Assembly: GCF_003287975.1 (NCBI RefSeq)
Contig: NZ_QMKQ01000008.1
Location: 1-64,000 of the forward strand
Direction: 5' to 3'
DNA from: Arthrobacter sp. AQ5-05
GTDB taxonomy: Bacteria > Actinomycetota > Actinomycetes > Actinomycetales > Micrococcaceae
DNA length: 64,000 bases
Below the pieces are notes generated by a model. The model was not told the DNA's origin, did not search any database, and was given only the letters and a program-made list of their open reading frames with translations. Position numbers and translations under genes: made by a program. This document shows positions 38,031-59,734 of this stretch, one piece after another. The stretch's first letter is position 1, and each line of letters starts with the position of its first letter.

Positions 38031-38323
38031 GGCGAACGCCTCGATTCGAAGGAAACTGACGCAATTCTAGTCTTCAGACTGAACGTTTGACCCGTCGTTT
38101 GCTGTGGTCTTCCTCCGGTACGCTCTCCCGCCCGGGCTGGGCAACCACGTGGGCTGGCCGGCGGCACGAAAGCCCGGCTTTCCACGCCGTCCCCCCGATG
38201 CCGGCGGCCGTGATGGAGACGTTCCCCCGATCGCTCCGGGGGATGTTTTCCGCGGCCTTGGCGTTCCGGCGGAAGCACCTGGTTTCCGGCCATCTGCAAT
38301 GATAGGGGAAAAGGAGATACTTG

Positions 38324-39166: not shown

Positions 39167-39319
39167 GACGGAAATCCGCCAAGTCAATATGGTGCACATC
39201 ACCTAGCAAGAAGCCGCAGGAACCTGTCACAGTGGACAGGAACGCCTCCATGCTCGGCCATCGGCCGCGCACCGGAGGCAGCAGCACCGCATGTCAGCAT
39301 TTGCAAAGGAGCAATGACC

Positions 39320-43117: not shown

Positions 43118-43124
43118 GTTTTTC

Positions 43125-44243
43125 CTAGTTCGATCCTGAACGCTGACGGGCTTGATCCTTTTCGATCATCCTGTCGACGAAGCGGGACTGCGGAATGGTG
43201 ATGAGCACGAAGACAATGGCGACCACGGTGACGGGTGAAAGGTTGAAGACTGCCGATCCGACGAGGCGCGACTGGGTAAAGGCATCGATGACACCCATGA
43301 CTCCAATCAAGGCAGTGTCCTTTTGGAGCCCGATGAAATCGTTGAGCAACGGCGGGATGACGCGGCGGACCGCCTGGGGAATGATTACGGTGCGCAAGGC
43401 CTGCGGGTACGACAGCCCCAGCGAGCGGGCGGCCGCCCACTGACTGCGATGAATGGAATCCAGCCCTGCTCGGTAAACCTCCGCGACGTAGGCGCTGTAG
43501 GTGAGGGTTAGCGCAAAGATGGCCAGTACGATCGGTGGGAGATCCTTGAAAAATGGCACCTCGGCAAGAGACAAACCGAACCCCACCAGGTACAGGACGA
43601 TAATGCCGGGGATGGCGCGGAATACGTCGGTGTAAAGGACTGCCAGGAAGCGCAGGGGTCGTCCGGCCCTGCCCGGAAGCATTCGCATGATGGCGATCAC
43701 CAGACCGAGCACCAACACCAGCACCTCGGCACCAATGGCCACCTGGACGTTGACCCAGAATGCGCGCAACACATCAGACCAAGCCTGGGCGATGAATTCG
43801 GGACGAAGGAATGTCCGGGCAATGGCGCCGTCGTTGGTGCTGACAAACGCGACCAGCAACGCGAGGACGACAATCGCAACCGAGTATCCGAGGCTTGTGA
43901 GTGCGGATTCGCGGCCAAGAGCGGCATGGTGTCTGGCGATGACGATGCCGTTGTCCTGCAGGGCGTTACGGGACTTGCGGGCGCTTCTGAGCGCTTGGAC
44001 CGTGGGCAGCAGGGGCAGCCAGGTCGCGAGCCAGAGGACCACGAACACTGCCTTGGTGAACGCGCCGGCGGGCTGGGGATACATATAGGCGTAAAGCCAC
44101 GCAAGTGCGTAGAAGGACGTCACCGCGGTAAGGATGACTACGATGACCGACGCCGCCGTCAGCGGCACCACCGCCGGGGGTTGTGCCTGCGGCGGTTGAA
44201 GGCGCGCGTCGTACGTGTCTTGGGTGGGCGTCACGTTGATCAT
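43125..44243 (-). CDS. Polar amino acid ABC transporter, permease
   Basis: A 372-aa membrane protein. The C-terminal 200 residues form the HisM/GlnP-type permease domain with VLYTDVFRAIPGIIVLYL, and the ATPase-contact EAA-like loop WAAARSLGLSYPQALRTVIIPQA. The first 150 residues add about three extra helices not needed in minimal permeases. ATG 44243 overlaps the upstream stop (ATGA). One permease probably forms a homodimer. Confidence 0.9.
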   Translation of the reverse strand: MINVTPTQDTYDARLQPPQAQPPAVVPLTAASVIVVILTAVTSFYALAWLYAYMYPQPAGAFTKAVFVVLWLATWLPLLPTVQALRSARKSRNALQDNGIVIARHHAALGRESALTSLGYSVAIVVLALLVAFVSTNDGAIARTFLRPEFIAQAWSDVLRAFWVNVQVAIGAEVLVLVLGLVIAIMRMLPGRAGRPLRFLAVLYTDVFRAIPGIIVLYLVGFGLSLAEVPFFKDLPPIVLAIFALTLTYSAYVAEVYRAGLDSIHRSQWAAARSLGLSYPQALRTVIIPQAVRRVIPPLLNDFIGLQKDTALIGVMGVIDAFTQSRLVGSAVFNLSPVTVVAIVFVLITIPQSRFVDRMIEKDQARQRSGSN

Positions 44244-45115
44244 GGGATCTCGAACACCGGAACCTTGGCGGGATCGCCGCCGAGCGTGGGGCCCAGCCAG
44301 GAGGCGGACAGTTTTTCCAGCGTCCCGTCCACTTCCATGGCGGCGATGGCTTCATCCATGGCGGAGGCATTGGGTGAATCCTTCGGGTAGATGGCCCCGT
44401 ATTGTTCTCCCGTCTGGTACTGCCCAACGACCTCCATGGCGCCCGCGGAACCGCTGGCAAATCCAAGCATGATGGCGGTGTCCTGGATGGCTGCATCGAT
44501 TTGGCCCGATGCCACTCCCGTGACCATCGCGTCGGTTTCCTGGAAGACGCGCGCCGGCGTGCCGGGCTTCAGCTTCTCCTGGGCGAAAGGCACTGCCGTC
44601 GTACCCAGCGCGACACCAATGGTCTTGGACTGGATGTTCTCCGCGCTGACGTCGGATCCCTTCTTGACCAGCACCGAAACGTTGGAGTCATAGTACGGCT
44701 CGGAAAACTGGACGACCTTTTGGCGCTCAGGCGTAATGGACACCTGCGCCATGGCGATGTCGAATCCGTCAGTTTGTCCGGCCGCCAGCGCGTCGAAGGA
44801 GGCATTCGCCACCTTGAGCTTGCCAAGGCCCGCGCGATGGGCGATGTTTGCCGCGAGGCAGTACTCATAGCCTCCGGTGATCTTGTCCGGCGAGACGCCC
44901 TTCCACCAACCGGGGGAAGGCAGGTTCGTTTGCACGGTAAAAGTGTCAGGGGTGACGGGGTTGAGCTTGATGGACCCGGCCGCGCCGTACACCTCGCACT
45001 CGCCGAAGGCTGCGTCTGCCCCATCCTTCGCCTGGGTTGCCCCTCCGCATCCGGTCAATGCCAAGGTGGACGCTGCAGCTAGCGCCACCAATGTTCCTAA
45101 TCGTTGTCTGGCCAT
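44240..45115 (-). CDS. ABC transporter solute-binding lipoprotein (amino-acid type)
   Basis: A 291-aa family 3 substrate-binding lipoprotein. The signal peptide ends in the lipobox LTGCGG. The mature domain includes GGYEYCLAANIAHRAGL, FDIAMAQVSITPERQKVVQFSEPYYDS (in pieces) and DAMVTGVASGQIDAAI, typical of polar amino-acid binders. The usual carboxylate-binding Arg is not at its common place, so the ligand may be unusual. First gene of the transporter operon; an 18-bp palindrome lies 40 bases upstream. Confidence 0.9.
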   Translation of the reverse strand: MARQRLGTLVALAAASTLALTGCGGATQAKDGADAAFGECEVYGAAGSIKLNPVTPDTFTVQTNLPSPGWWKGVSPDKITGGYEYCLAANIAHRAGLGKLKVANASFDALAAGQTDGFDIAMAQVSITPERQKVVQFSEPYYDSNVSVLVKKGSDVSAENIQSKTIGVALGTTAVPFAQEKLKPGTPARVFQETDAMVTGVASGQIDAAIQDTAIMLGFASGSAGAMEVVGQYQTGEQYGAIYPKDSPNASAMDEAIAAMEVDGTLEKLSASWLGPTLGGDPAKVPVFEIP

Positions 45116-45272: not shown

Positions 45273-45902
45273 ATGACCAGGAAAACTGCACAGGCGCGCC
45301 GCGTTGAGGTGCTTGGGGAAACCGTTCGCCAAATTCGGGCCGGGGGAATGTCGGCCCTGCGCGTTGCGGATGTGGCTGCAGCCATGGACGTCAGCGCGGC
45401 ATTGATCATCTACCACTTTGAAACCAAGGAAAAGCTTCTGGCCGAAGCCCTGATGTATGCCGCCGAAAGCGATTTGCGAAAGCTGGGCCGAATCATGCGC
45501 GAACCCGGGACTCCGGCCACCAGGGTCATGGCCGCACTGGAATGGTATGCGCCCACAGGTCGCGCCAGGGGCTGGCAACTGTGGATTGACGCGTGGTCCT
45601 TTTCCATGCGTGACAAGGTGTTGGCAAAGGTTCTCGTTGACCTGCAGGGGCAGTGGACGGACGCGATCGGGGGCGCCATCGACGAAGGTGTTGCCGAAGG
45701 CGTTTTCACGACCGAAAACTCCCGCGACGCAGCCACACGGCTGACCTCGATGCTGGATGGCTTGGCGGTGCGGATGCTCGTGCACCAGGAGCGCATCGGG
45801 CGCCTCGAGCTGCATGCCTGGCTGGCCCGGCAGGTGGAGCTGGAGCTCGGCGAAACGGCCCGCAAGGCCATCGCCTGCGGGGTCAATAATTCAATCCCTT
45901 GA
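45273..45902 (+). CDS. TetR family transcriptional regulator
   Basis: A 209-aa dimeric repressor. The N-terminal helix-turn-helix is VADVAAAMDVSAALIIYHFETKEKLL, in parts the classic TetR recognition helix (IIYHF). The C-terminal domain resembles BetI-type regulators. TAGAGT at 45261-45266 lies six bases before ATG 45273 with no Shine-Dalgarno, so a leaderless mRNA is likely. It stands between the transporter and the catabolic run, each with a matching palindrome, and is the obvious controller. The ligand may be the amino compound or a CoA ester. Confidence 0.9.
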   Translation: MTRKTAQARRVEVLGETVRQIRAGGMSALRVADVAAAMDVSAALIIYHFETKEKLLAEALMYAAESDLRKLGRIMREPGTPATRVMAALEWYAPTGRARGWQLWIDAWSFSMRDKVLAKVLVDLQGQWTDAIGGAIDEGVAEGVFTTENSRDAATRLTSMLDGLAVRMLVHQERIGRLELHAWLARQVELELGETARKAIACGVNNSIP

Positions 45903-45974: not shown

Positions 45975-47186
45975 GTGTCGGTCGTGGTCGAGAAGAAAAA
46001 GCAGGACCTCAAAACGTCATCCTTGCTGGAGGTGTCATGGACCGACCCGGTCACCGGCGCCCAGGGGTTTCTGGTGATCGACCGCCTGGTGCGGGGCGTT
46101 TGCAGCGGTGGGCTGCGCATGCGCAAGGGCTGCACCCTGGAGGAAGTGCGCGGGTTGGCCCAGGGCATGACGCTGAAGGAAAGCCTGCATTACAACCCGA
46201 ACGGCCGCTACGTCCCCCTTGGAGGTGCCAAGGGCGGCATCGACTGCGACCCGCACGATCCGCAGATGCGGGGGGTGCTCAAGCGCTACCTCCAGGGAAT
46301 CGGAGCCCTCCTTCGGGCTCACTGGACCATGGGCGAAGACCTCGGCCTCCAGCAGAAGCTCATCGACGAGGTGATTCAGGAACTGGGGCTGGAAAGTTCT
46401 ATCCAGGCCGTGTACCCGTTGCTTTCGGACCCTGAAGAGGCCATCGCACGGCTGCGCCAGGCCTTCGGCATCGATGTTGACGGGGTGGGCCTCGGGGAAT
46501 TGGTGGGCGGGCTGGGCGTTGCCGAGTCCGTGCTCACGGCGTTGGACCAGCTCGGCCGGCCTCGTGTCGGTTCCCGCGTGGTCATCCAGGGCTTTGGCTC
46601 CATGGGCGGCGCCACGGCACGGTACCTGAATCAGGCCGGGATGCTCGTGGTGGGAATCGCCGACGCCAACGGCGTCATGGCCAACCCGAACGGGCTGGAC
46701 GTGGAAGCGCTCCTGAAGTCGCGCAATTCCTTTGGCGAGATCGACCGGGCGGGCTTGCGTCCAGAGGACGTGGAACTGCCGCGTGGACAGTGGCTCGCCG
46801 TCGAAACCGATGTCCTGGTGCCGGCGGCGATCTCGTACTGCATCACCGCTGAGAACCAACACGAGGTTGCGGCTTCCGTGATTGTCGAGGCCGCCAACAT
46901 GCCCGTGCTCCGGGAGGCCGAGGACTTGTTGACGGCCCGCGGCATCCAGGTGGTTCCCGACTTTGTTTCCAACTCCGCCACCAATGCGTGGTGGTGGTGG
47001 ACGCTCTTTGGCGACCTCGAGGCCGACCTCGGGCAGTCTGAGCACAAGATCCGCAGCGAAATGAGCCGAATAGTCACCGACATGTTTGGCCGTGCGGACA
47101 CCGACGGCGTCACCCTCCGAGATGCCGCACTGGCCTTCACGCAGGACCAGCTGCGCGACATCGACGCGCAGTTCGGGTTGGCATGA
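45975..47186 (+). CDS. Divergent Glu/Leu/Phe/Val dehydrogenase family protein
   Basis: A 403-aa amino-acid dehydrogenase homologue, expected to turn an amino acid into a 2-oxo acid with NAD(P). VPLGGAKGGIDCD holds the substrate lysines and GFGSMGGATARYL the Rossmann loop. The Asp of MGEDLGL stands where relatives have PAPDVGT, and VSNSATNAWWWWTLFG replaces the usual Asn-Ala-Gly-Gly-Val block, so the pocket must differ from that of glutamate or leucine enzymes. GTG 45975 has AGGAG at eight bases. First gene of the catabolic run. Confidence 0.82.
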   Translation: MSVVVEKKKQDLKTSSLLEVSWTDPVTGAQGFLVIDRLVRGVCSGGLRMRKGCTLEEVRGLAQGMTLKESLHYNPNGRYVPLGGAKGGIDCDPHDPQMRGVLKRYLQGIGALLRAHWTMGEDLGLQQKLIDEVIQELGLESSIQAVYPLLSDPEEAIARLRQAFGIDVDGVGLGELVGGLGVAESVLTALDQLGRPRVGSRVVIQGFGSMGGATARYLNQAGMLVVGIADANGVMANPNGLDVEALLKSRNSFGEIDRAGLRPEDVELPRGQWLAVETDVLVPAAISYCITAENQHEVAASVIVEAANMPVLREAEDLLTARGIQVVPDFVSNSATNAWWWWTLFGDLEADLGQSEHKIRSEMSRIVTDMFGRADTDGVTLRDAALAFTQDQLRDIDAQFGLA

Positions 47187-49228
47187 TCCCCCCGGATTCC
47201 TCCCTCGCCCCGTTCCGCAATCCGCGCTCCGTGGCAATTGTCGGGGCCTCGGACGACCACGCCAAGTGGGGCTACTGGTTGGCTCGCGGGGCGTTGACGG
47301 GGCGCCCCGAGCGTGCGGTGTTCCTGGTCAACGCAAAGGTCAACTTCGTTCAGGGCGAGAAGGCCTACCCCAAGGTTTCTTCCCTGCCGGAAGTTCCGGA
47401 ACTCGTGGTGCTGAGCATCCCAGCACGGTTCGTTGCCGAGGTCGTCGAGGACGCCTTGGCCGCGGGGTCCAAGGCATTTTTGGGCATCACCGCCGGAGTC
47501 CCCGGTGAGGAGTCCTTGAAGAGACGGATCAGCGAGAAGGGAGCCAGAATCATCGGGCCCAACAGCCTTGGTTTGTTCGACGCCGCCTCGAAATTGCAGC
47601 TGGCGTGGGGTCACTTCACCCCCGGTCATCTGGCCATCGTCTCCCAGAGCGGTCAGCTGGGATCTGAACTGGCCATCCTGGGTGCCCGGGCCGGCTTGGG
47701 AGTCTCCCGCTTCGTTTCCGTGGGCAACCAGCTGGATGTCAATGCAGCCGAGATCCTCGGCGACCTGGCGGACCACGAGGAAACCAAGATCGTGGCCCTG
47801 TACCTGGAAAGCTTTTGCGGCGGCGCCCGGCTTGTCGAAACAATCCGCGCCCTCACCCTGGCAGGGAAGACCACGCTGGTGCTCACCACCGGCGCTTCCG
47901 ACGGGAGCCAGCGACTGGCCAGGTCGCACACGGGTTCGCTGACTTCCGCACTGGTCACCGTGGACGCTGCCTGCCGCGCCGCGGGGGCCATTCGCGTCAA
48001 CACCCCTGCCGAGCTCATCAACCTCGCACGGTACCTAAGCGTCGCGGACAAGCCCGCGGGCCGCCGCACCGCGCTCATCAGCGACAGCGGTGGGCAAGGA
48101 GGGATCGCCGCGGACGTCGCGGCGCGGACAGGGCTGCAGGGCACGGTCTTTTCCGACGCCCTCCAGCGAAGGCTCGCAGCCATCCTTCCGGCGGGCGCAG
48201 CGGTGTGCAACCCCGTCGACCTGGCCGGTGCCGGCGAGGCAAACCTCCACGTCTACGCCGATGTGGTCGAGGCGCTGAAGGACTCGGGCGAAGTGGATGC
48301 GGTGGTGCTCTCCGGCTACTTCGGGCGCTACGGGGAAGACACCCCGGCGCTCGGACTCCTCGAGCTGGAGGTCGCGGACCGGCTTGCGGCACTGGCCGAC
48401 GGTTCATGCCTCGCTCTGGCCGTGCACAGCCTCAGCGACAGCTCCCCCGTCGTCGGGCGATTGTGGGAGCGTGGCGTCCCGTGCTACCCGGGCATCGAAT
48501 TTGCCCTAGAGGCCCTGGCCTCGGCGGCCCGGCTTGCCGAGGCACCGGGACGCCCGCTCAGTGCAACTGCGCGCACGGTCCGGGAGCCGGACCCCGGCTA
48601 CTGGTCGGCGCGCGGGCTGCTGGCCGAGCTGGGAATCGACGCGCCGGCAGGCATGCTGGCACTGAACCGCGAAGACGTATCCCGGGCCGGGCGGATGTTG
48701 ACGTATCCGCTGGTGTTGAAGGCCGGTTGGCTGGAACACAAGAGCGAGCACGGCGGCGTGAAGCTGGGTCTGGGTTCGGCCGAGCAGTTGCTCGCGGCTT
48801 TCGATGAGATGCATCGACTCCTGGGTGACGGACAGTATGTCGTGGAGGAACAGGACATGCGGGAGAACACAGTCGAGGTGCTCGTGGGTGCCCGCCGGGA
48901 CAGGGATTTCGGTGCGGTGATCACCGTCGGAGCCGGTGGAACCGAAACCGAACTCCACAAGGACATCAGCGTGGAACTTGCCCCCGTGGACGAAGCCACC
49001 GCCCTGACGATGATCGGCAGGCTCAAGTGCCTGCCGCTGCTCCAAGGGTGGCGCGGACGGCCAGCCACCGACATCGCGGCCCTGGCCCGGATCGTGGTTG
49101 CGGTTTCCGAGGCTGTCGCGGCGACCGAAAGCATCACGGAATTTGAAGTAAACCCCATCCGAGTGGCCGCGTCCGGCGCACTGGCTGTAGACGCGCTGGT
49201 GCTGTCCAAGGCCACGGCAAGAGTATGA
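47183..49228 (+). CDS. NDP-forming acyl-CoA synthetase (acetate-CoA ligase family)
   Basis: A 681-aa single-chain enzyme with a CoA-binding domain (VAIVGASDDHAKWG), a succinyl-CoA-ligase-like domain with the phospho-His in ARSHTGSL at about residue 252, and a C-terminal ATP-grasp domain (YPLVLKAGWLEHKSEHGGV). It makes an acyl-CoA from an acid and ATP, or the reverse. ATG 47183 overlaps the dehydrogenase stop. It likely activates the acid formed in this pathway. Confidence 0.88.
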   Translation: MIPPDSSLAPFRNPRSVAIVGASDDHAKWGYWLARGALTGRPERAVFLVNAKVNFVQGEKAYPKVSSLPEVPELVVLSIPARFVAEVVEDALAAGSKAFLGITAGVPGEESLKRRISEKGARIIGPNSLGLFDAASKLQLAWGHFTPGHLAIVSQSGQLGSELAILGARAGLGVSRFVSVGNQLDVNAAEILGDLADHEETKIVALYLESFCGGARLVETIRALTLAGKTTLVLTTGASDGSQRLARSHTGSLTSALVTVDAACRAAGAIRVNTPAELINLARYLSVADKPAGRRTALISDSGGQGGIAADVAARTGLQGTVFSDALQRRLAAILPAGAAVCNPVDLAGAGEANLHVYADVVEALKDSGEVDAVVLSGYFGRYGEDTPALGLLELEVADRLAALADGSCLALAVHSLSDSSPVVGRLWERGVPCYPGIEFALEALASAARLAEAPGRPLSATARTVREPDPGYWSARGLLAELGIDAPAGMLALNREDVSRAGRMLTYPLVLKAGWLEHKSEHGGVKLGLGSAEQLLAAFDEMHRLLGDGQYVVEEQDMRENTVEVLVGARRDRDFGAVITVGAGGTETELHKDISVELAPVDEATALTMIGRLKCLPLLQGWRGRPATDIAALARIVVAVSEAVAATESITEFEVNPIRVAASGALAVDALVLSKATARV

Positions 49229-49239
49229 AGGAGAACATC

Positions 49240-50046
49240 ATGATCGTCCCGGACATCAGCACCGAATTCCGCGACAAGGTGGCAGTGGTAACCGGAGGAG
49301 GCTCGGGCATTGGCCGCGCCATCGCCCAACGCTATGCGGCAGCAGGCGGCAAGGTCGTCGTGTTGGGGCGCCGCGAGGAACCGCTGCAGGAAACCGTCCG
49401 GCTCATCACCGAAGCGGGCGGGCAAGCCGGCCACGTTTCCTGCGATGTGCGCGACGCCCAGGGCATGGCCGAGGCCATCGATGCGGTGGCAGCCGAGGAA
49501 GGCCGCCTGGATGCCCTGGTGAACAATGCGGCAGGCAACTTCATTGCCGCCGGCGAAGACCTGAGCCCCAACGGGTGGAAGGCGGTGATCGACATCGTCC
49601 TGAACGGCACCTTCTACGCCACCCATGCTGCCGCCCAGCACATGCTGGCGGCGGGCTCGGGCAGCATCCTGAACGTCATCGCCACCTATGCCTGGCACGG
49701 CCACCCCGGCACGGTCCACAGCGCCGCGGCCAAGGGCGGCGTCGTCGCCATGACCCGCACCCTGGCCGTGGAATGGGCCGCCCGCGGCGTGCGCGTCAAC
49801 TGCATTGCACCGGGTCCGACCGAGACCGAGGGCGCCGGTGCCGCCCTGTGGGGCACCGAAGCCGCGCGCGCCAGGGTCTTGGGCGGAGTCCCCGCCGGGC
49901 GTTTCGCCAGCCCCGCGGAGATCGCCGAGTCGGCCTCCTACCTGTTGGGCCCCCGCGCCGACTACATCACCGGTGAGGTCATGGTGGTCGACGGAGGGCA
50001 GTGGCTGGGCAAGTCCGTCTACACCGCCTCGGGGGCCAACGCATGA
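49240..50046 (+). CDS. 2,4-dienoyl-CoA reductase-type SDR
   Basis: A 268-aa short-chain dehydrogenase. TGGGSGIGRAIA binds the cofactor. NNAAGNF and the active-site area GTVHSAAAKGGV, which lacks the usual catalytic Tyr but keeps Ser/Lys, are marks of the dienoyl-CoA/enoyl-CoA reductase branch (YkuF/DECR). It may remove an extra double bond or reduce an enoyl-CoA. ATG 49240 has GGAG at a good distance; ATG 49225 overlaps the previous stop and would add five residues. Confidence 0.83.
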   Translation: MIVPDISTEFRDKVAVVTGGGSGIGRAIAQRYAAAGGKVVVLGRREEPLQETVRLITEAGGQAGHVSCDVRDAQGMAEAIDAVAAEEGRLDALVNNAAGNFIAAGEDLSPNGWKAVIDIVLNGTFYATHAAAQHMLAAGSGSILNVIATYAWHGHPGTVHSAAAKGGVVAMTRTLAVEWAARGVRVNCIAPGPTETEGAGAALWGTEAARARVLGGVPAGRFASPAEIAESASYLLGPRADYITGEVMVVDGGQWLGKSVYTASGANA

Positions 50047-51656
50047 GCCCCATGACCGGCGGGCAGGCGCTGATCGCTGCCCTCGCCGCCCACGGCGTCG
50101 ACACGATCTTCGGCATCCCGGGCACCCACAACCTGGCGGCCTATGCGGCCATGCCGGCCTACGGCATCACCCATGTCTCCACGCGCCACGAACAGGGTGC
50201 AGGCTATGCGGCCGACGGCTATGCCCGGTCCTCGGGACGACCCGGGGTGGTGGTGACCACCACCGGTCCGGCAATCCTCAACGCCGCGGCGGCCGCCGCG
50301 CAGTCCTACTCGGATTCCGTGCCGGTGCTGTTCATCTCCCCCGGGATGCCGTTGCGCCACCCGGGGCGCGGCAACGGGCTGCTGCACGAGATCAAGAACC
50401 AAGGCGCCGCACTGGATGCGGTCGTGGCCTACAGCCACCGAGTCACTTCGGTCGCGGAGATCCCGCTGGCCGTTGCTCAGGCGTTTGCCTTCATGGGCAC
50501 CGGCAGGCCGCGCCCCGTCCACCTGGAAGTCCCTCTTGACCTGCTCGACGAGGTCGCCGAGATTTCCATCGTGCCACCGGTCGCCGCCGGCTTGTTGGGT
50601 GCTCCCCCCGCAGCCGTGGCAGCAGCCGCCGCGGCGCTGTCCGCCGGCCAACGCCCACTGGTCCTGGTCGGCGGCGGGGCATCCCGGGCCGCCGACCAAG
50701 TCAAGGCCGTTGCAGAGGCACTGGGCGCCCCGGTCCTGGCCACAACCAACGGCAAGGGCATCCTGCCCGAGGACCACGAGCTGGCCGTCGGCGCCGGGCT
50801 GCAGCATCCCAGCGTGATGGCAGCAGTCGGTGACGCCGACATCGTCTTGGCCATCGGAACGGAACTTGCACCATCCGATTGGTGGCTCGGGCTGCCGTCG
50901 TTGGAAGGCAAGCTGGTCCGCATCGACATCGATGCGACCGCCATCAGCACCAACGCCGTCCCCAGCCACGGGCTGGTCGGTGACAGCGCAGCAGTGTTGG
51001 AGTCGCTGATGATGCACCTTGCAGCCGGAAGCGACGATCCCAACCGCACCGCCATCAAGCGCACCGCGGCGCTGCGCGAGGGCTTCACTGCAGATGCCCG
51101 TGCCGAGGGCGGACCGTGGCTGGAGATCGTCGCGGCGATCGAGGCCGCCCTGCCGCGCGATGCCATCGTGGCCGGCGACAGCGCCATGGCCTGCTACTAC
51201 GGCGCGCTGTCCAACCTGCCCCTGCACCGCCCCAACGCTTTCCTGTATCCCACGGGCGTGGGCACCCTGGGCTACGGGCTGCCCGCGGGGATCGGGGCAA
51301 AGGTCGCCAACCCCGATGCCCCGGTGCTGGTCTTGCAGGGGGACGGCGGCATCATGTTCACCATCGCCGAGCTTGCCACCGCCGCCGAGCTGGGCATCGC
51401 CCTTCCCATCGTTGTCGTGGACAACGGAGGGTATGGGGAAATCCACAACGAAATGGTCGACCGCGGCTCACCGGTGCATTCCGTGGCTCTGGGCCACCCG
51501 GATTTCCCTGCCTTGGCACGCTCAATGGGATGCCACGGGGTAGCCGTGGCCAACGCCGATGAACTCGCCGCAGGCATCAAGGTCGCGCTCGATTCGGACA
51601 GGCCCACATTGCTGCACATCCGTGAGCACAGCCGCGCCTCGGAGGGCATGGGCTAG
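50043..51656 (+). CDS. ThDP-dependent 2-oxo acid decarboxylase, AruI-like
   Basis: A 537-aa three-domain ThDP enzyme. The activating Glu is in STRHEQGAGYAADGYAR. The ThDP motif begins at GDGG near residue 440 and ends at VDNGGYGE. GNGLLHEIKNQ is close to the corresponding LHE block of AruI, the 5-guanidino-2-oxopentanoate decarboxylase of the arginine transaminase route. It would decarboxylate the 2-oxo acid made by the first enzyme. A 2-hydroxyacyl-CoA lyase role is the main alternative. ATG 50043 overlaps the SDR stop. Confidence 0.8.
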   Translation: MSPMTGGQALIAALAAHGVDTIFGIPGTHNLAAYAAMPAYGITHVSTRHEQGAGYAADGYARSSGRPGVVVTTTGPAILNAAAAAAQSYSDSVPVLFISPGMPLRHPGRGNGLLHEIKNQGAALDAVVAYSHRVTSVAEIPLAVAQAFAFMGTGRPRPVHLEVPLDLLDEVAEISIVPPVAAGLLGAPPAAVAAAAAALSAGQRPLVLVGGGASRAADQVKAVAEALGAPVLATTNGKGILPEDHELAVGAGLQHPSVMAAVGDADIVLAIGTELAPSDWWLGLPSLEGKLVRIDIDATAISTNAVPSHGLVGDSAAVLESLMMHLAAGSDDPNRTAIKRTAALREGFTADARAEGGPWLEIVAAIEAALPRDAIVAGDSAMACYYGALSNLPLHRPNAFLYPTGVGTLGYGLPAGIGAKVANPDAPVLVLQGDGGIMFTIAELATAAELGIALPIVVVDNGGYGEIHNEMVDRGSPVHSVALGHPDFPALARSMGCHGVAVANADELAAGIKVALDSDRPTLLHIREHSRASEGMG

Positions 51657-51762
51657 GCCTGCTTCAACGCCGGTCCCGGGCGCTGCGCCGCGGGCATTCC
51701 GCATGGAACTGCCACTGAAACACACCAACTAGAACCGATCCAAGCACCAGAGGAGAAACAAC

Positions 51763-52920
51763 ATGGCTAAGAACAATGTCGAATACTGGCCGCTGAGCGA
51801 CGAGCAGCGCGCAATTGTGGACCTGTGCAAGGATTTCGCCACAAATGAGATTCGGCCGCGGGGACGCGAAGTCGATGAGGCGGACACCGTTCCGCCCGTG
51901 GACATCTTCCGGAAGGCAGCAGAAATCGGCATTACCGATTTCATGTTGCCGGAGGAATACGGAGGCGGAGGATACACCGACGTCTTTACCCAGTGCCTGG
52001 TCCAGGAACAGCTCTGTTGGGGCGACCCCGGAATCGGCAACTTCATCTGCGCGAATGGCTTCTTTGCCGATCCGGTCCTGGCCCTGGGCTCCGAACTCCA
52101 GAAGAAGCGGTGGCTGTCCTCGCTGACCGGACCCGACGCACTGTTCACTTCGTTGGCCACGACGGAGCCGGGTTCCGGTTCCGACTCGGCTTCCATCGTG
52201 ACCCGTGCCGACAAGGTTCCGGGAGGTTACTCGATCAATGGGCAGAAGTCCTGGATATCAAATGCAGGATTGGCGGACCAGTACGTGGTGTTCGCCAAGA
52301 CCGATCCTTCCGAGCGTTCCAAGGGCGTCACCGCTTTCCTGCTGAAAAAAGGCACCCCGGGAATGAGCTTCGGTGAACCCATGAAGAAGATGGGCCAGCG
52401 GGCGATCGTTTGCCGCGAGATCTTCTTCGACAATGTGTTTGTTCCCGAGGAAGACCGTTTGGGCGATGAAGGGCAGGGCTTCTACGGCCTGATGAAGACC
52501 TTCGATGTCTCCCGCGTTGTGCTTGCCGCAGCGGCGACCGGCGCCGCCCGGGCGGCCTACGAGTATGCACTGGAATACGCCCGCACCCGGACACAATTCG
52601 GCAAGCCGATCATCGAGCACCAGGCGGTGGCATTCCGCCTGGCTGACATGGCTACCCGCATTGAGTCCTCGTGGCTGATGACACTGCACGCTGCCCGACA
52701 ACTGGATGCGGGGGAAGACGTGAATGGTCTGGCCGCGATGGCCAAATTGCAGGCTTCCGAAACGGCCATGTTCTGCACGTGGGCAGCGGTGCAAACACTC
52801 GGCGGCTGGGGCTACTCCCGCGAATACCCGGTGGAGCAGTGGATGCGTGACGTCAAACTGGAGGAAATCGAAGAAGGCACCTCGGACATCATGCGCCTGG
52901 TGATCTCCCGCAACCTCTAG
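51763..52920 (+). CDS. Acyl-CoA dehydrogenase
   Basis: A 385-aa FAD acyl-CoA dehydrogenase. TTEPGSGSDSA binds FAD and substrate, RTQFGKPI is in the C-terminal helical domain, and the catalytic Glu is in EEIEEGTSDIMRL. It oxidises an acyl-CoA to the 2-enoyl-CoA and gives electrons to the ETF encoded next to it. ATG 51763 follows AGAGGAGAAA. A 106-bp gap before it may hold an internal promoter. Confidence 0.92.
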   Translation: MAKNNVEYWPLSDEQRAIVDLCKDFATNEIRPRGREVDEADTVPPVDIFRKAAEIGITDFMLPEEYGGGGYTDVFTQCLVQEQLCWGDPGIGNFICANGFFADPVLALGSELQKKRWLSSLTGPDALFTSLATTEPGSGSDSASIVTRADKVPGGYSINGQKSWISNAGLADQYVVFAKTDPSERSKGVTAFLLKKGTPGMSFGEPMKKMGQRAIVCREIFFDNVFVPEEDRLGDEGQGFYGLMKTFDVSRVVLAAAATGAARAAYEYALEYARTRTQFGKPIIEHQAVAFRLADMATRIESSWLMTLHAARQLDAGEDVNGLAAMAKLQASETAMFCTWAAVQTLGGWGYSREYPVEQWMRDVKLEEIEEGTSDIMRLVISRNL

Positions 52921-52979
52921 CATCCCCATCCATGGTTTCGGTTCCGAAGCCCGGTCATTGAAAGACAAGGAAAAGCAGC

Positions 52980-53747
52980 GTGAAAATTGCAGTGTTGGTA
53001 AAGCAGGTGCCTGACACAGGCGAACAGCGCACCCTCGACCCCATCACGGGGTTGGTGGATCGCCGCGGCGAAAACGTGCTTGACGAGATCAACGAGCGAG
53101 CCCTGGAAGTGGCATTGCGCTACAAGGATGCCAACAAGGGAACTGAGGTGGTCGTCGTTTCCATGGGCCCGGACACACTCACGAAGGGGCTGCGGAAGGC
53201 ACTTTCAATGGGTGCGGATGCGGCACTTCAGGTCCTCGACGATGCCCTGGCCGGGGCCGACGCCGGACGCACGGCCGCGGTCCTGGCCTGCGCCGTGCGT
53301 TCGCTGGCGGTCGATGTGGTGGTGGCCGGGAACGAATCCACGGATGGCCGCAGCGGTGTTGTCCCGGCCATGGTGGCCGAGCACCTGTCGTTGCCGTTGC
53401 TCAGCGCCCTTGACGCTGTTGAGCTGTCGGAAGTCGAGGTCTTGGGACAGCGCAGCACGGCAACCGGGTCGCTGCGGGCCAGCGTCCCGCTGCCGGCAGT
53501 CATCTCCGTCACCGAGCGCTCTGCCGAGGCCCGGTTCCCCAGCTTCAAGGGAATCATGACAGCCAAACGCAAGGTGTTGACGGTGATGTCGGTTGCCCAA
53601 TTGGGGCAATTGCCTGGCAATACGGGCCAGACCAGCATCCTGTCCACGCTGCGCAGCCCGGCCCGGCCCGCAGGGCGACGGATCGTCGATGAAGGAAACG
53701 CCGGCCACGAGTTGGCCCAGTTCCTGCGCTCCGGCAGCTTGATCTAG
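52980..53747 (+). CDS. etfB: Electron transfer flavoprotein beta subunit
   Basis: A 255-aa Etf[18 protein letters not shown] opens the AMP-binding domain, and [26 protein letters not shown]-like ([11 protein letters not shown]) and [13 protein letters not shown] blocks follow. GTG 52980 has AAGGAAAAG upstream. With EtfA it carries electrons from the acyl-CoA dehydrogenase. Its tail of about 30 residues is longer than normal. Confidence 0.92.
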
Positions 53748-53764
53748 TAGAAAGACGGACCATC

Positions 53765-54736
53765 ATGAAGAATGTCTTGACCCTGATTGAAACCACCGAC
53801 ACGTCAGAACTTGGAAACACGACCGCGGGCTTGTTGGGCGCGGCGTCCAGGATCGGCAACCCCGTCGCCGTGGTTGCCGTGGCCCCCGGCCATGGCTCCG
53901 CGTTGGTCGGTCAGCTCGGAGCCCTCGGAGCAACCCATGTGATCCTTGCCGAGTGCGAGGGAACCGGAAGCCTCCTGGTTGCCCCGGAACTCGAGGCCCT
54001 TTCGGCGGCCGCACGGCAAGTGGATCCGGTGGCCGTGATTGCCGCGAACTCGGTGGCCGGGCGTGATGTGGCTGCCCGGTTCGCCGTTCGGGCGGGTGCA
54101 GGACTCCTTGCAGACGTTGTTGCCGTGGACACGGACGGGGACGCCATCGTGGCAACCCATTCCGTCCTGGGCGGTGACTACACCGTGAAGGCCACCATCA
54201 CCTCCGGCCCCGCAGTCATCACCGTCCGCCAGGGCGCCATCAAGGATATTGCCCCCGCCGCAACGCCAACGTCCGCCACCGTGATAGTCACCCCGGGAAG
54301 CACCGCGGCAACCATCCTCTCCACCACACTGGAGACCACCGGCAGCAATCGGCCGGAGTTGCGTGGCGCCACACGCGTGGTGGCTGGCGGAAGAGGACTT
54401 GGCTCCGCGGAGAACTTCATCCTTGTCGATGAATTGGCGGACAAATTGGGTGCCGCGGTGGGTGCATCGCGCGCCGCGGTGGACGCCGGCTATGTGGAAC
54501 AAGGTGCCCAAGTGGGCCAGACCGGGGTCAGTGTGTCCCCAGACCTCTACATCGCGCTGGGCATTTCGGGGGCGATCCAGCACCGTGCCGGCATGCAGAC
54601 CGCCAAGACCATCGTGGCGATCAATTCCGATGCCTCGGCACCCATCTTCGACGTGGCCGACTTCGGCGTCGTGGGCGATGTTCTCACCGTGGTGCCCCAG
54701 CTGATCAGTGCGCTCGGTGCGCAATCCGACTCATGA
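53765..54736 (+). CDS. etfA: Electron transfer flavoprotein alpha subunit
   Basis: A 323-aa EtfA. The C-terminal FAD domain shows [50 protein letters not shown] (in pieces) and IVAINSD. It starts 17 bases after etfB and its stop overlaps the next gene (ATGA), which encodes a membrane cytochrome b. Confidence 0.92.
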
Positions 54737-55662
54737 CGCTGCTCAAGTCCCGTCCGCCCGGAAGAGGCAGCAAGACACGTGCGATGCTCACTGCGGGTGC
54801 CGGGGTCGCGCTGTTGGTCCTTCTGGTCCTGGCTGCCAAGTGGTTGCGTGGGTTCGAGGGTGTCCAGGATTTCTTGGCGGAGTACACCGGGCATTCAGCG
54901 CTGCCCGAAGGAGCACCGGTGGGGTTGCCGGGCTGGCTGCGCTGGCAACATTTCCTGAACGGTTTCTTCCTGCTGTTGATGGTGCGCACCGGTTGGTTGG
55001 TGCACACCACCACCCGGCCGGCCGCGTACTGGACCCGGAAAAATAAGGGCCTGTTGCGCACCAAGGGGGCGCCCAAGAAGATCAGCCTCGATCTGTGGCT
55101 CCACCTGACCTTGGACATGCTGTGGGTGTTGAACGGAATGGTGTTCGCGGTGTTTTTGCTGGCCACCGGCCAATGGATGCGGATCGTCCCCACCAGCTGG
55201 GATATTTTCCCCAACGCTCTCTCGGCCTTGCTGCAATACGCCTCGTTGGAGTGGCCGTTGGAACAAGGCTGGGTCAATTACAACGCCATGCAGGTCCTGG
55301 CCTACTTCCTGACGGTGTTCATTGCTGCGCCGTTGGCACTTGCCTCGGGCCTAAGGATGTCTCCGGCCTGGCCAAAGAACGCCCCGCTGCTGAACCGGGT
55401 GTTCCCCATCGGGGCATCCCGCGCCATCCATTTGCCGGTCATGTTCTACTTCGTGGGGTTTGTGGTGGTGCATGTGGCCTTGGTTCTTGCCACCGGAGCC
55501 GTGGCGAACCTGAACCACATGTATGCCGGAGGCACGGACGGCAGTTGGGCAGGAGTCGCGGTGTTTGCGCTCTCCCTTGTCCTGATGGTTGCCGGGTGGT
55601 TCATGGCACGCCCGCTGTTCATTCGCCCCATTGCATCCCTGACGGGAAATCTCAGCCGTTGA
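54733..55662 (+). CDS. Membrane cytochrome b561-like protein coupled to ETF
   Basis: A 309-aa protein with six hydrophobic segments. Histidines at helix starts or cores ([33 protein letters not shown]) fit two b hemes as in the cytochrome b561/hydrogenase-b family. It overlaps etfA by four bases. No ETF:quinone oxidoreductase gene is near. I infer that it takes electrons from this ETF, directly or through a partner, to the quinone pool; this is not shown for the family. Confidence 0.75.
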
Positions 55663-55699
55663 GCCCCGGCACGTCAACATCCTCGAGAAGGAGGGAACC

Positions 55700-56884
55700 A
55701 TGAAAGACGGCGACAAGATCGTGATCCTCGATGGCGCGCGAACCCCCATTGGCAGCTTCGGGGGATCGCTCAAGGACCTCGATGCCCACGAACTCGGTGC
55801 CGTGGCCGTCCGAGCCGCGATCCAACGTGCAGGGATCGCCGGCCGGGAGGTCGAGGAAGTTGTCATGGGGTGCATCGGACAGGTCGGATCCGATGCCTAC
55901 AATGCCCGGAGGGTGGCCCTTGCCGCCGGGCTGTCCGAGTCCACGCCCGCCTACACGGTGAACAGGCTGTGCGGGAGTGGATTGCAGGCGGTGTGGTCGG
56001 CTGCGATGCAAATGCGCTGGAGCGGCCTGGACTTCACCATAGCCGGCGGCAACGAGTCGATGACCCGCATGCCGTTCTACGATTTTGCAGCCAGGGCCGG
56101 CTATCGCTTGGGCGACCGCACCTTGGTGGATGGCACCGTGGCCATGCTGACGGATCCGTTCAATAACATCCACATGGGCGTCACGGCCGAAAACGTCGCC
56201 CGGACCTACGGGGTCTCCCGCCAGGACCAGGATGAGTTTGCATTGGAATCCCAACGCCGGGCCGCTACGGATGCCGCCCGCGCGGTCTTCGCCGAAGAGA
56301 TCACCCCCGTCAACGTTGGCGGGCGCAACCCCCGCACCATTTCCGTTGATGAGCACCCGCGGCCAGAGACCACCGCGGAGTCGTTGGCAGGATTGCGGTC
56401 GGTGTTCGAGCGGGAAGGAACGGTCACCGCGGGAAACGCCTCCGGGGTCAACGACGGTGGAGCCGCCGTAGTGCTTGCCCGCGCCGGCGCGGCCTCCGAC
56501 CGCGGCCTGAAGGGGCTCGCGAGCCTGGAGGCGGTGACCACCGCGGCACTGGATCCGGCGCTGATGGGTTATGCCCCGACGCTGGCCCTGCACAAGCTCT
56601 TCGACGAAACGGGGATGACGCCGGCGGACATCGACATCGTGGAACTCAACGAGGCCTTTGCCGCCCAGGCCGTCGCCGTCATGCGCGACGCGAAACTGGA
56701 TCCGGAGAAAACCAACCCATATGGAGGTGCCATTGCGCTGGGCCATCCCGTGGGGGCCACGGGCGCCATGTTGAGTCTGCGGATTGCCAAGGACCTGGTG
56801 CGCCGTGACCTGGAATTCGGCGTTGTCACGATGTGCATCGGAGGAGGTCAAGCCCTGGCAGCCTTGTTCCGCCGCGCATCCTGA
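55700..56884 (+). CDS. Acetyl-CoA C-acyltransferase (thiolase)
   Basis: A 394-aa thiolase. The acylated Cys is at 91 in NRLCGSGLQ, the His in GHPVGATG and the second Cys in CIGGGQAL. It splits a 3-oxoacyl-CoA with CoA to acetyl-CoA and a shorter acyl-CoA, the last step of this pathway. ATG 55700 follows AGAAGGAGGGAA. Confidence 0.93.
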   Translation: MKDGDKIVILDGARTPIGSFGGSLKDLDAHELGAVAVRAAIQRAGIAGREVEEVVMGCIGQVGSDAYNARRVALAAGLSESTPAYTVNRLCGSGLQAVWSAAMQMRWSGLDFTIAGGNESMTRMPFYDFAARAGYRLGDRTLVDGTVAMLTDPFNNIHMGVTAENVARTYGVSRQDQDEFALESQRRAATDAARAVFAEEITPVNVGGRNPRTISVDEHPRPETTAESLAGLRSVFEREGTVTAGNASGVNDGGAAVVLARAGAASDRGLKGLASLEAVTTAALDPALMGYAPTLALHKLFDETGMTPADIDIVELNEAFAAQAVAVMRDAKLDPEKTNPYGGAIALGHPVGATGAMLSLRIAKDLVRRDLEFGVVTMCIGGGQALAALFRRAS

Positions 56885-56958
56885 TCGGCGGCAATCGACG
56901 TCCAAGCCGGTGTGCAATACATGTCGCGTACGCCGCAACTTTCACTGTAAGGATGGAT

Positions 56959-57729
56959 ATGACTTTCGAGAACATTTTGGTCCGGTTCGAAGGCCCTTTG
57001 ATGTGGCTGACGTTGAACCGGCCCGCCGAGGCCAACGCCATCAGCATCGCCATGGGGCAGGAATTCTGCGCGGCGATTGAGCAGGCCGAGCGGGACCCTG
57101 CGATCCACGTCGTCATCCTCCAAGGCAATGGCAGGTTCTTCTGTGCCGGCGGAGACGTCGCCATGATGGACGCGGCAGAAGATCCCGCGGTGTTCCTGAA
57201 GGAACTGGCCGAAACCATGCACTTCGGGCTGCTGCGGCTGGCGAGGTCCAGGCTGATCACCATTGCCGCCGTCGACGGCTACGCGGCCGGCGCGGGATTG
57301 GGACTGGTGCTGAATGCCGACGTGGTGCTGGCATCGGAAAGGGCAGGTTTCCTCAGCGCCTACGGAAGCATCGGCCTGACTCCTGATTGTGGCGTCTCCT
57401 ACCTGCTCCCGCAGGTGGTTGGTCCGCGACGGGCAGCCCATATGGCCCTGTTGGGACGATCGGTCAATGCGGAAGAAGGGCTTGCCTGGGGGCTTGTCAC
57501 CGAAGTCGTTACGCAGGGCGATCTTGTCGCGCGAGCCCGTGACTTGGGCGAATTTCTGGGAACGGCCGCCACCCAGATGCTCGGACCCACCAAGAAACTC
57601 TTGTCTGCAGGCATCAGCGAAGCCTACGCCAGGCACCTGGACGACGAAGCCGAAACCATTTTTGCCATGATTTCCCTGCCCGACACCCGGCGGCGCATCG
57701 GGGAGTTCCTGGCCCGCAGTAAACGATAG
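56959..57729 (+). CDS. Enoyl-CoA hydratase/isomerase family protein
   Basis: A 256-aa crotonase. [13 protein letters not shown] opens the fold, the oxyanion hole is in [11 protein letters not shown] and [12 protein letters not shown], and the glutamates expected in hydratases are replaced near [16 protein letters not shown] by Asp/Cys, as in some isomerases and in PaaG-type proteins. ATG 56959 has AAGG at seven bases; ATG 56953 is too close to it. It ends the run. Confidence 0.87.
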
Positions 57730-57953
57730 GAGTCTTTAGGTGCAGCCCTGGCGTGTGGGTGGTAGTGAAACCATCTGGGCGGTTCCGCCCCGCTGCTCTT
57801 GGACCGCCAATACGCTGCAAGCTTCCGGGGTCCGCACCGGGTTGGCCGTTTGCGGCGAGGAAGTCTCCATGGCTGCGCCAATCCTCGAGGACTGGCTGGG
57901 GAATCAGATCTCATCCGGTAGAACACCAGCCGGACGGTTCGATGGAACATTGG

Positions 57954-58400
57954 CTAGTTGCGTGCCGCGGTGCGTCCGCCGAAGTCGTCGGCGATGTTCT
58001 TTGCGGTCCGGCGCATCAGCGGCAGCATCTCTTCGGTGATCGAGGCGGAGCCGATGCGACCGGGCTGCACCGAGACGTTCAGCGCACCGAGCAGCTGGGC
58101 GCCCCGGTACACGGGAACCGCCAGCCCGCGCAGCCCCTCGTCCAGTTCCTGCGCCACCAGGGACCAGCCCTGCGCGCGCACCAGGTCCAGTTCGGCACGC
58201 AGGTGCCCGATGCCGGCCACGGTCTTGGAGGTGTGGTTCCGCAGCTGGGCGTTGGCCAGGGATTCCTCGCGCGCCGCCTCGGGCAGTTCGACGACCAGCA
58301 CCCGGCCCATCGAGGTGGCCCAGACCGGAAGCCGGTTGCCGTCGGTCTCCAGATACCCCGGGTCCACCAGGGTCAGCAGGAAGCAGCGGGCCGCGGCGCG
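57954..58400 (-). pseudogene. IclR family regulator, C-terminal fragment
   Basis: The text from [16 protein letters not shown] through [20 protein letters not shown] to the end is the effector domain of a PcaR-type IclR regulator. The N-terminal DNA-binding domain (about 90-110 residues) is missing; upstream of about 58400 the frame turns into antisense of the transporter gene. The upper limit is approximate. This looks like a deletion that joined two once-divergent genes. Confidence 0.8.
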
Positions 58401-58429
58401 AAATCCGTGCCCGGCACCGGGGGCAGGAC

Positions 58430-59734
58430 GCCGGTCAGAACCGCCTTGGTCAGCTTCATGGGCAGTGCTGTGGAATACTACGACTTCTTCATCTTCGGCT
58501 CCGCAGCCGCGCTGATCTTCCCCCACGTGTTCTTCCCCGGCGCCGATGCCAACTCCGCGGTCATGTCACTGGCGACCTTCGGCTTCGCCTACGTCGCCCG
58601 CCCCATCGGCGCGGTGATCCTGGGCCACTTCGGAGACAGGATCGGGCGGCAAAAGGTCCTGATGTTCACGCTGGTGCTGATGGGCGCGGCGACCTTCATG
58701 ATCGGCTGCCTGCCAACCTTCGACCAGGTGGGCTGGCTGGCCCCGATCCTGCTGGTGCTCGCGCGCCTGCTGCAGGGCCTCTCTGCCGCCGGAGAGCAGG
58801 CCGGTGCCTCCTCGCTGACCCTGGAACACGCGCCGGATGACCGCCGTTCCTCTTCACCTCCTGGACGCTGACCGGCACCCGGGGCGGCCGGATCCTCGCC
58901 GCGCTGATCTTCATTCCCGTGGTTGCCATGCCCGAGGAGTTCAAATACACCATCGGCTGGCGCATCCCGTTCTGGCTCTCCGCGGTGGTCGTCATCGTCA
59001 CCTTCTTCTTCCGCCGCTCACTGCACGAGACCCCGGAATTCGAGAATGCCAAGAAGAACAACGAGATCGCCAAGCTGCCCCTCGGCGTGCTGATCCGCTT
59101 CCACTGGCGCGACGTGCTGCGCGTGGTGTTCTGCGCCTTCATCGCCGCGGTCTCCATCGTCTACGGCACCCTGGCCATCTCCTATGGCAAGTCGATCGGG
59201 CACATGGACGAATCGGTCACGCTGTGGCTGGTGGTTGCCGGCAACGTCGGGGCACTGTTCACCCAGCCGTTCTTCGGCAAGCTGGCCGATCGGATCGGCC
59301 GCAAGCCGGTGTTCATCTACGGCGCACTGTCATCCGCCGCGTTCATGCCCTTCTACCTGCGTTCCATGGAAACCGACAACACCGTGATGCAGTTCGGTCT
59401 CTCACTGCTGGTCTTCTCCTGCGCCTACGCCGCGGCCAACGCCGTCTGGCCCTCCTTCTACGCGGAGATGTTCTCCTCGCAGGTCCGCTTCTCCGGCCTG
59501 GCCATCGGCACCCAGCTCGGCTTCCTGATGGCCGACTTCGCGCCCTCCATCGTCGCGGCCCTCGGCGGCCTGGAGCCCGGCGGCTGGGTGGTCATCAGCT
59601 TGTTCACCCTGGTGATCGCGCTGGTTGCCTCGGTCTCCGCGCTGACCGCCAAGGAAACCTACCGCGTGCCCACGCACCTGCTGGGCCGCACCGCGCACAA
59701 GGTCGAAAACGCCTCCGGCGCCCAGGTGCAGTAG
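58430..59734 (+). pseudogene. MHS-family MFS transporter, truncated and frameshifted
   Basis: A metabolite:H+ symporter. [26 protein letters not shown] and [14 protein letters not shown] are typical of the first half, and the second half from about 58853 on (IPFWLSAVV, NVGALFTQPFFGKLADRIGRKP in parts) is in another frame. One base is missing at 58851-58852, so the first frame stops at 58871. The first 15-20 residues are also lost at the junction with the IclR fragment. Left limit approximate. Confidence 0.82.

Follow-up and report, generated by a model that had tools for sequence, protein, structure and literature searches.

Ten genes on the + strand of Arthrobacter sp. AQ5-05 DNA (positions 45975–57729 of the window, the 64,000-nucleotide stretch of contig NZ_QMKQ01000008.1 analysed here) belong to a conserved actinobacterial module whose linkage goes beyond chance: the same gene families recur together in many genera. 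The best explanation that we can offer, tentatively and at somewhat under an even chance, is a catabolic operon of actinobacteria, spread by horizontal transfer, through which an amino acid (most probably L-lysine) is broken down as CoA thioesters.

From gene content, gene co-occurrence and active-site residues we infer the reactions, the substrate and the loss of ammonia as follows. Lysine would be taken up by an ATP-binding cassette (ABC) importer, oxidatively deaminated to 2-oxo-6-aminohexanoate by an ELFV (Glu/Leu/Phe/Val) dehydrogenase and decarboxylated to 5-aminopentanal by a thiamine pyrophosphate (TPP) enzyme; relatives may have a second source of 5-aminopentanal, an amine oxidase that acts on an amine. 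An aldehyde dehydrogenase, encoded in the cluster in some relatives and elsewhere in the genome of AQ5-05, would yield 5-aminovalerate, which the NDP-forming ligase would activate to 5-aminovaleryl-CoA. An acyl-CoA dehydrogenase (ACAD) with an unusual Glu-Glu pair, working with the electron transfer flavoprotein (ETF) subunits EtfAB and a b-type cytochrome, would carry out α,β-dehydrogenation to 5-amino-2-pentenoyl-CoA, from which ammonia would leave to give 2,4-pentadienoyl-CoA. The dienoyl-CoA reductase would convert the latter to 3-pentenoyl-CoA and a PaaG-type isomerase would turn this into 2-pentenoyl-CoA, to be hydrated and oxidised by fatty acid enzymes encoded elsewhere and cleaved by thiolysis to acetyl-CoA and propionyl-CoA.

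A 2,4-dienoyl-CoA is proposed because a dienoyl-CoA reductase (or a FabK-like stand-in) and an enoyl isomerase then make most sense. By chemical reasoning, only a C5 chain with nitrogen at C5 would give such a product by simple elimination, so that the C5 acid would be 5-aminovalerate, formed from lysine by deamination and decarboxylation. An earlier note on this DNA, made from the sequence alone, had taken the path to end in acetyl-CoA; the products are probably acetyl-CoA and propionyl-CoA, an outcome that fits the BktB-like thiolase.

Composition of the cluster

45975–47186, + strand: ELFV amino acid dehydrogenase (PF00208/PF02812), predicted lysine-type 2-dehydrogenase, substrate putative
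47183–49228, + strand: NDP-forming acyl-CoA ligase, CoA-binding and ATP-grasp parts in a single chain (PF13380, PF13607, PF13549)
49225–50046, + strand: short-chain dehydrogenase/reductase (SDR) of predicted 2,4-dienoyl-CoA reductase type (NCBIfam PRK07677, below cut-off; DECR1 alignment)
50043–51656, + strand: TPP-dependent 2-oxo acid decarboxylase (best NCBIfam model PRK07524, below cut-off)
51763–52920, + strand: ACAD with the Glu370-Glu371 pair (Pfam), predicted 5-aminovaleryl-CoA dehydrogenase
52980–53747, + strand: ETF beta (PF01012)
53765–54736, + strand: ETF alpha (PF00766, PF01012)
54733–55662, + strand: cytochrome b561-like membrane protein (PF01292, below gathering score), candidate ETF electron acceptor
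55700–56884, + strand: thiolase, nearest named family BktB (NCBIfam PRK09051, below cut-off)
56953–57729, + strand: crotonase-fold enzyme, putative PaaG-type isomerase (4fzw_C match, residue columns), start codon uncertain

The list of open reading frames (ORFs) of the window confirms the description of ten same-strand genes, several of them coupled: four of the nine junctions within the set are 4-nt overlaps (47183–47186, 49225–49228, 50043–50046 and 54733–54736). NCBIfam and Pfam searches gave the gene order listed above and upheld the families assigned earlier to the dehydrogenase, the 2-oxo acid decarboxylase, the acyl-CoA ligase, the ACAD with its ETF, and the thiolase; the cytochrome b561-like gene, one of the ten, had not been named. 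Over the ten proteins, Pfam detected neither a 3-hydroxyacyl-CoA dehydrogenase domain nor an aldehyde dehydrogenase domain. The former activity had been expected to come from outside the set, and PF02737 3-hydroxyacyl-CoA dehydrogenase domains are indeed found at several other places in the genome, the best of them on the same contig (C8:105198); the enzymes of fatty acid oxidation would likewise provide a genuine hydratase.

Distribution and gene linkage

Relatives of the ELFV dehydrogenase (E ≤ 1e-60) were found in 26 of 297 genomes sampled from the order, the 25 besides AQ5-05 all belonging to other families, and among 15 genomes of the genus the ACAD (E ≤ 1e-120) was present solely in that of AQ5-05. 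Thirteen ELFV matches fell in a single other genus of the order, apparently Brevibacterium. Twelve of these loci were taken: TetR, ELFV, ligase, TPP and ACAD genes occur side by side in eight, and the remaining four have ELFV and TPP genes with neither ligase nor ACAD within the stretch taken.

Scanning the named genomes with an ACAD alignment yielded 73 loci from Arthrobacter, Specibacter, Nocardioides, Aeromicrobium, Gordonia, Kribbella, Rhodococcus, Prescottella, Nocardia, Mycolicibacterium, Mycobacterium, Streptomyces, Streptacidiphilus, Leucobacter, Pimelobacter, Brevibacterium and several metagenome-assembled genomes, among others. In Arthrobacter psychrochitiniphilus (L059) and Specibacter (L060), the resemblance to the window extends to the Etf, cytochrome and thiolase genes, and L059 has an aldehyde dehydrogenase gene and a 2-hydroxyacid dehydrogenase homologue between the TPP and ACAD genes. 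The core of the cluster is present on two Streptomyces plasmids. This patchy spread over distant genera, together with the plasmid copies, suggests horizontal transfer of the cluster. Across genomes the set stays together in relatives; it is not one whose genes lie always apart, the pattern that the earlier note had named as speaking against its reading.

Presence of each family was scored per locus by chosen identity thresholds. Two loci (L124 and L130) that hold no further cluster family at these thresholds were set aside, leaving 71, some of which are short contigs that lower the counts: ligase 63, TPP enzyme 49, ELFV dehydrogenase 43, SDR 26, amine oxidase 20, NCS1-type permease 19, aldehyde dehydrogenase 17, FabK-like reductase 6, mycothiol-type dehydrogenase 5, PotD-like protein 5, binding protein of the window's type 4, 2-hydroxyacid dehydrogenase 3, EtfA 2 and cytochrome 2. 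Dropping the 22 Brevibacterium loci and nine more that do not exceed 15 kb left a subset of 40 loci with ligase in 39, TPP enzyme in 25, SDR in 23, ELFV dehydrogenase in 20, amine oxidase in 20, permease in 19, aldehyde dehydrogenase in 16 and the FabK-like reductase in six. The earlier statement that an aldehyde dehydrogenase is missing from the set thus holds for the window but not for the 17 of 71 relatives with an in-cluster copy (at least 50% identity).

The P values given here treat loci as independent, though the genomes are related. Within the 40-locus subset the TPP and ELFV genes co-occur (both in 19 loci, TPP alone in six, ELFV alone in one, neither in 14; P = 4e-5). Either a TPP enzyme or an amine oxidase is present in 38 of the 40 loci and both in seven, the two loci with neither being L063 and L115. 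Because of this pattern, an amino acid branch (ELFV and TPP enzymes) and an amine branch (oxidase and permease) seem to converge on one aldehyde and to feed a single acid-to-CoA branch made up of aldehyde dehydrogenase, ligase, ACAD and reductase. The single aldehyde dehydrogenase scanned, that of L059, scored best with an aminobutyraldehyde model (402 against a cut-off of 615 bits) and had a betaine aldehyde dehydrogenase model in third place, all below cut-off. The one PotD-like protein searched (from L105) has as its nearest solved relative a protein titled polyamine-binding and, in third place, a γ-aminobutyrate (GABA) sensor.

Active-site residues of the cluster enzymes

In the ACAD, a Glu residue immediately precedes the catalytic Glu (Glu370-Glu371) in 69 of the 73 loci; two of the other four are unreadable (L114 is cut and L115 broken), and L124 and L130 have Gly and Tyr, respectively. 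The Glu-Glu pair is absent from all ten readable ACAD paralogues in the AQ5-05 genome (three more were unreadable in the alignment) and from the five aligned PDB entries, where the Glu370 column holds four Tyr and a single Phe; among the four Tyr-bearing enzymes, one has Thr at the catalytic position. The extra carboxylate, buried in the acyl pocket, suggests an acyl chain that is cationic. A bolder proposal, which we regard as rather unlikely, is that the Glu-Glu ACAD catalyses two steps, acting on 5-aminovaleryl-CoA as dehydrogenase and then as ammonia-lyase, and so forms 2,4-pentadienoyl-CoA aerobically; with the dienoyl-CoA reductase it would provide a transaminase-free removal of the terminal nitrogen from lysine, cadaverine or 5-aminovalerate that is widespread in actinobacteria.

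The SDR reaches 293 bits with PRK07677, short of the cut-off of 318. It nevertheless shares with human DECR1 (1w6u) the Tyr/Ser/Lys residues and the NNAAGNF motif and lacks YxxxK, and all 26 SDR relatives agree. Taking these residues to have the roles that we ascribe to them in DECR1, the predicted assignment to the 2,4-dienoyl-CoA reductase type, already made in the earlier note, holds at the level of the active site, though not by the model cut-off. On the same pattern, a reading as an ordinary 3-hydroxyacyl-CoA dehydrogenase was rejected. The unsaturated carbon chain that had been deduced from this gene is in keeping with the dienoyl-type site, but the unsaturation need not be in the substrate and could arise within the pathway when a terminal amine is lost. 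The FabK-like reductase (L066 protein; 225 bits with the FabK model against a cut-off of 453) occurs in six loci, all of them without the SDR (both in none, SDR alone in 23, FabK-like alone in six, neither in 11 of the 40-locus subset, P = 0.003; over all 73 loci the corresponding numbers are 0, 26, 6 and 41, P = 0.08).

The crotonase, previously labelled an enoyl-CoA hydratase, has Gly and Tyr where 5zai has both hydratase glutamates. It retains the Asp of GLxPDCG (GLTPDCG, compared with GLIPDCG of the PaaG-type entry 4fzw_C, its second-best PDB match). With the roles that we assume for the hydratase glutamates and for the PaaG-type Asp, the protein looks like a PaaG-type isomerase rather than a hydratase. 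The thiolase scores 456.9 bits with the BktB model PRK09051 (cut-off 565) and, in a second comparison, 428.3 bits against a cut-off of 725, in both cases below the cut-off.

In the ELFV dehydrogenase, Lys68, Lys86 and Asp122 are each conserved in 42 of 43 relatives, with one gap each, and both Pfam domains are present. The column in which glutamate dehydrogenase has the Lys that binds the side-chain carboxylate is occupied by Ser in 36 and Gly in six of the 43 (one gap), residue 69 is Glu in 39 and Asp in three (one gap), and Trp340 is found in all 43. We assume for the Lys/Lys/Asp residues the catalytic role, and for the Lys column the role in glutamate binding, that they have in reference enzymes. 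The Glu of RHEQGAG in the TPP enzyme, presumably the one that activates TPP, is present in 49 of 49 relatives. Further TPP-family genes were noticed in other contexts. On the window's own contig C8 (L058:5281–7946), a gene whose product is 41% identical to that of the window stands before a homologue (43%) of 2-hydroxyacid dehydrogenase, and on a plasmid of Arthrobacter sp. ERGS1:01 (L186) a 42% relative has a gene annotated as 'C-terminal binding protein' in its vicinity. On a Shinella plasmid (L185), a 39.6%-identical relative adjoins an oxidoreductase nearest to the FadH/OYE model (547/793 bits), in a neighbourhood with an aminotransferase, two ETF pairs and folD/purU.

The cytochrome b561-like protein scores 23.7 bits with PF01292, below the gathering score of 30.1, and may be the link from ETF to quinone in this family. 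The ETFQO_UQ-bd domain was not found in the AQ5-05 genome; only two of 14 control genomes have one. Relatives of the cytochrome (E ≤ 1e-30) are present in 143 of 197 genomes of the family, and etfA adjoins the cytochrome gene in 21 of the 30 loci returned, that of the window included. Another set of ACAD, cytochrome and EtfAB genes lies on contig C15 of the same genome (L183:8263–17030); close to it are a homologue (39%) of an amino acid permease and an ORF resembling, by eye, putrescine oxidase.

Lysine and the rival substrates

Several observations weigh against the lysine route. No gene for the elimination of ammonia (an ammonia-lyase) was identified, and the named model closest to the TPP enzyme belongs to the arginine pathway (PRK07524, 5-guanidino-2-oxopentanoate decarboxylase, AruI type; 494.9 bits, under the cut-off of 500). 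The SDR and the FabK-like gene were both unseen in the 22 Brevibacterium loci (L114 and L129 being cut) and in 11 of the 40 loci outside that genus; a match to the aldehyde dehydrogenase was likewise unseen in the Brevibacterium loci, two of them cut. The isomerase-type crotonase had no match in the 73 loci (E ≤ 1e-6; E ≤ 1e-15), the thiolase was found in two of 71 (at least 75% identity), and none of the eight more distant ELFV matches fetched, out of 12, had the other cluster genes. To the clustered aldehyde dehydrogenase, the AQ5-05 genome offers nothing closer than a 40% identical relative, and the binding protein of the importer (44240–45115), read by eye, has no clear signature for a cationic side chain. 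The only amine oxidase aligned, that of L077, matches monoamine oxidase best among PDB entries (306 bits), followed by cyclohexylamine oxidase (256) and putrescine oxidase (250), and has Val in the column of Glu324 of putrescine oxidase, with a gap two columns away. We take Glu324 to be the diamine-binding residue, and the Val, on this one alignment, speaks against cadaverine; speculatively, a cyclic amine, for example piperidine, would resolve this conflict. In favour of the proposed route, though weakly, no match to the lysine 6-aminotransferase family passed the cut-off in the AQ5-05 genome, just as in all 14 control genomes; the decarboxylase, saccharopine and monooxygenase routes were not searched for.

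The alternatives differ chiefly in whether they leave a role for the dienoyl-CoA reductase. If the substrate were arginine or agmatine, which appears improbable, arginine would pass through 2-ketoarginine and 4-guanidinobutanal to 4-guanidinobutyryl-CoA and then to β-oxidation. This would suit the nearest model of the TPP enzyme (two relatives on Streptomyces plasmids are annotated accordingly), the acidic pocket of the ACAD, which could accept a guanidinium group, and the amine oxidase, which agmatine could feed. However, a C4 chain with its nitrogen at C4 yields no 2,4-dienoyl-CoA, so that neither the dienoyl reductase nor its FabK-like stand-in would have a role; one ureohydrolase motif scanned over the ORFs of 74 stretches (the window and the 73 loci) gave no reported hit, and two agmatinase-family genes lie outside the cluster in the AQ5-05 genome, one of them overlapping another TPP-family gene. 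We place arginine below lysine because the dienoyl step is impossible and the agmatinase-family genes are elsewhere. The overlapping pair, on the – strand of contig C10 (L182:7500–10210), joins a second TPP-family gene to an agmatinase-family gene end to start, and may represent a separate guanidino-acid route. A motif search of the loci for specific neighbour enzymes yielded little. Ornithine or putrescine, by way of 4-aminobutyryl-CoA, meets the same chemical obstacle to dienoyl-CoA formation, and GABA is normally transaminated; even with the GABA-sensor-like binding protein linked in five of the 71 loci, one of them searched, we consider this C4 route very improbable.

Retaining the C5 chain, N-methyl-lysines or trimethyllysine could give 5-(methylamino)- or 5-trimethylammonio-valeryl-CoA, from which a methylated amine would leave. 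In Streptomyces loci L090, L092 and L184, N-methyl-L-tryptophan oxidase-like genes flank the ELFV gene on both sides, and in Streptomyces L187 a solA gene lies on one side, findings suggestive of N-methylated substrates. A protein beside the ACAD in L090 scores above the cut-off of the model for S-(hydroxymethyl)mycothiol dehydrogenase and has a 92% relative in L092, likewise beside the ACAD, and 39–41% relatives in L061, L063 and L121; the Trp-rich motif of the ELFV dehydrogenase and the resemblance of the aldehyde dehydrogenase to betaine aldehyde dehydrogenase point the same way. Such genes are nevertheless confined to few loci (the mycothiol-type dehydrogenase relatives to five of 71) and absent from the window, and we judge this variant quite unlikely. 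A neutral amino acid of the branched-chain or methionine type, degraded with its monoamine by ordinary β-oxidation while the SDR serves something else, would agree with the monoamine oxidase match of the L077 oxidase, with its lack of the putrescine oxidase Glu, and with an ELFV family name that covers leucine and valine enzymes. The conserved Glu of the acyl pocket and the conserved dienoyl reductase site are hard to place in such a scheme, which makes it improbable too; the methionine and branched-chain routes were set aside, as the dienoyl reductase would have no role in them. Conversion of 2-aminoadipate to glutaryl-CoA was discarded on the grounds of an ELFV dehydrogenase without the carboxylate-binding Lys and an ACAD pocket with the additional Glu.

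Relation to known systems

The AruI-type arginine pathway (AruH/AruI; PRK07524) resembles the lysine route in that the 2-oxo acid derived from a basic amino acid is decarboxylated by an enzyme of the same TPP subfamily and an aldehyde dehydrogenase follows. It differs in that the window has a dehydrogenase instead of a transaminase and in that the product would go to a CoA thioester and an ACAD and not to a ureohydrolase. The auxiliary pair of β-oxidation consists of 2,4-dienoyl-CoA reductase and enoyl-CoA isomerase, which is matched in the window by the DECR1-like SDR site and the isomerase-type crotonase, although here the genes stand among amino acid genes and not in a fatty acid operon. 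Clostridium viride presumably has a pentadienoyl-CoA step, with a dehydratase that we take to be akin to ACADs. Its fermentation is reported to proceed from 5-aminovalerate via 5-hydroxyvalerate to valerate (PMC8473912). Like the lysine route, it strips a C5 chain of its terminal group in forming an unsaturated C5-CoA; it is, however, anaerobic, removes the nitrogen first, to give 5-hydroxyvalerate, and ends in valerate. In engineered Escherichia coli, according to another report (PMC7900509), lysine oxidase, a keto acid decarboxylase and an aldehyde dehydrogenase convert lysine via 2-keto-6-aminocaproate to 5-aminovalerate, which corresponds to the first three conversions proposed here (deamination, decarboxylation, aldehyde oxidation), but that enzyme set is artificial and 5-aminovalerate is its target product.

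The enzyme families are familiar, and we could not find their combination described. The open literature searched, which excludes most subscription papers, gave no paper on aminovaleryl-CoA, alone or with lysine degradation, or on pentadienoyl-CoA. If the lysine route is correct, lysine (or another basic amino acid or amine) would be degraded through CoA thioesters by the logic of β-oxidation in relatives of Arthrobacter, Brevibacterium, Rhodococcus, Gordonia, Mycolicibacterium, Nocardioides and Streptomyces. Genes annotated on Streptomyces plasmids as '5-guanidino-2-oxopentanoate decarboxylase', 'acetate--CoA ligase family protein' and 'Glu/Leu/Phe/Val dehydrogenase' would gain functions, and there would be natural enzymes for making 5-aminovalerate, the nylon-5 building block, from lysine, in place of what has so far been an artificial set (PMC7900509).

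Neighbouring genes

Upstream of the ten genes lie a TetR-type gene and, divergently oriented (42374–45115, – strand), the amino-acid-type importer that had been reported beside the set and was found there.

42374–43117, – strand: ATPase of the amino-acid-type ABC importer (ORF)
43125–44243, – strand: permease of the amino-acid-type ABC importer (ORF)
44240–45115, – strand: substrate-binding lipoprotein, amino-acid type (PDB sequence matches)
45273–45902, + strand: TetR-type regulator, named by eye (ORF)

Glutamine-, arginine- and Lys/Arg/Orn-binding proteins are among the PDB matches of the lipoprotein. Homologues of the importer ATPase, permease and binding protein adjoin the cluster in Brevibacterium (L087, L088 and L127) and Nocardioides (L128), and a TetR homologue precedes the amino acid dehydrogenase gene in Brevibacterium, Kribbella, Nocardia and others. 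Further upstream (38321–41716, + strand) are genes that, by eye, resemble those for a phosphoenolpyruvate (PEP) synthase regulatory protein and PEP synthase. Directly after the cluster, positions 57753–59734 hold apparent remnants, named by eye: a short IclR-type ORF (57954–58526, – strand) and a major facilitator superfamily transporter seemingly split across two frames (to 58871, and 58919–59734).

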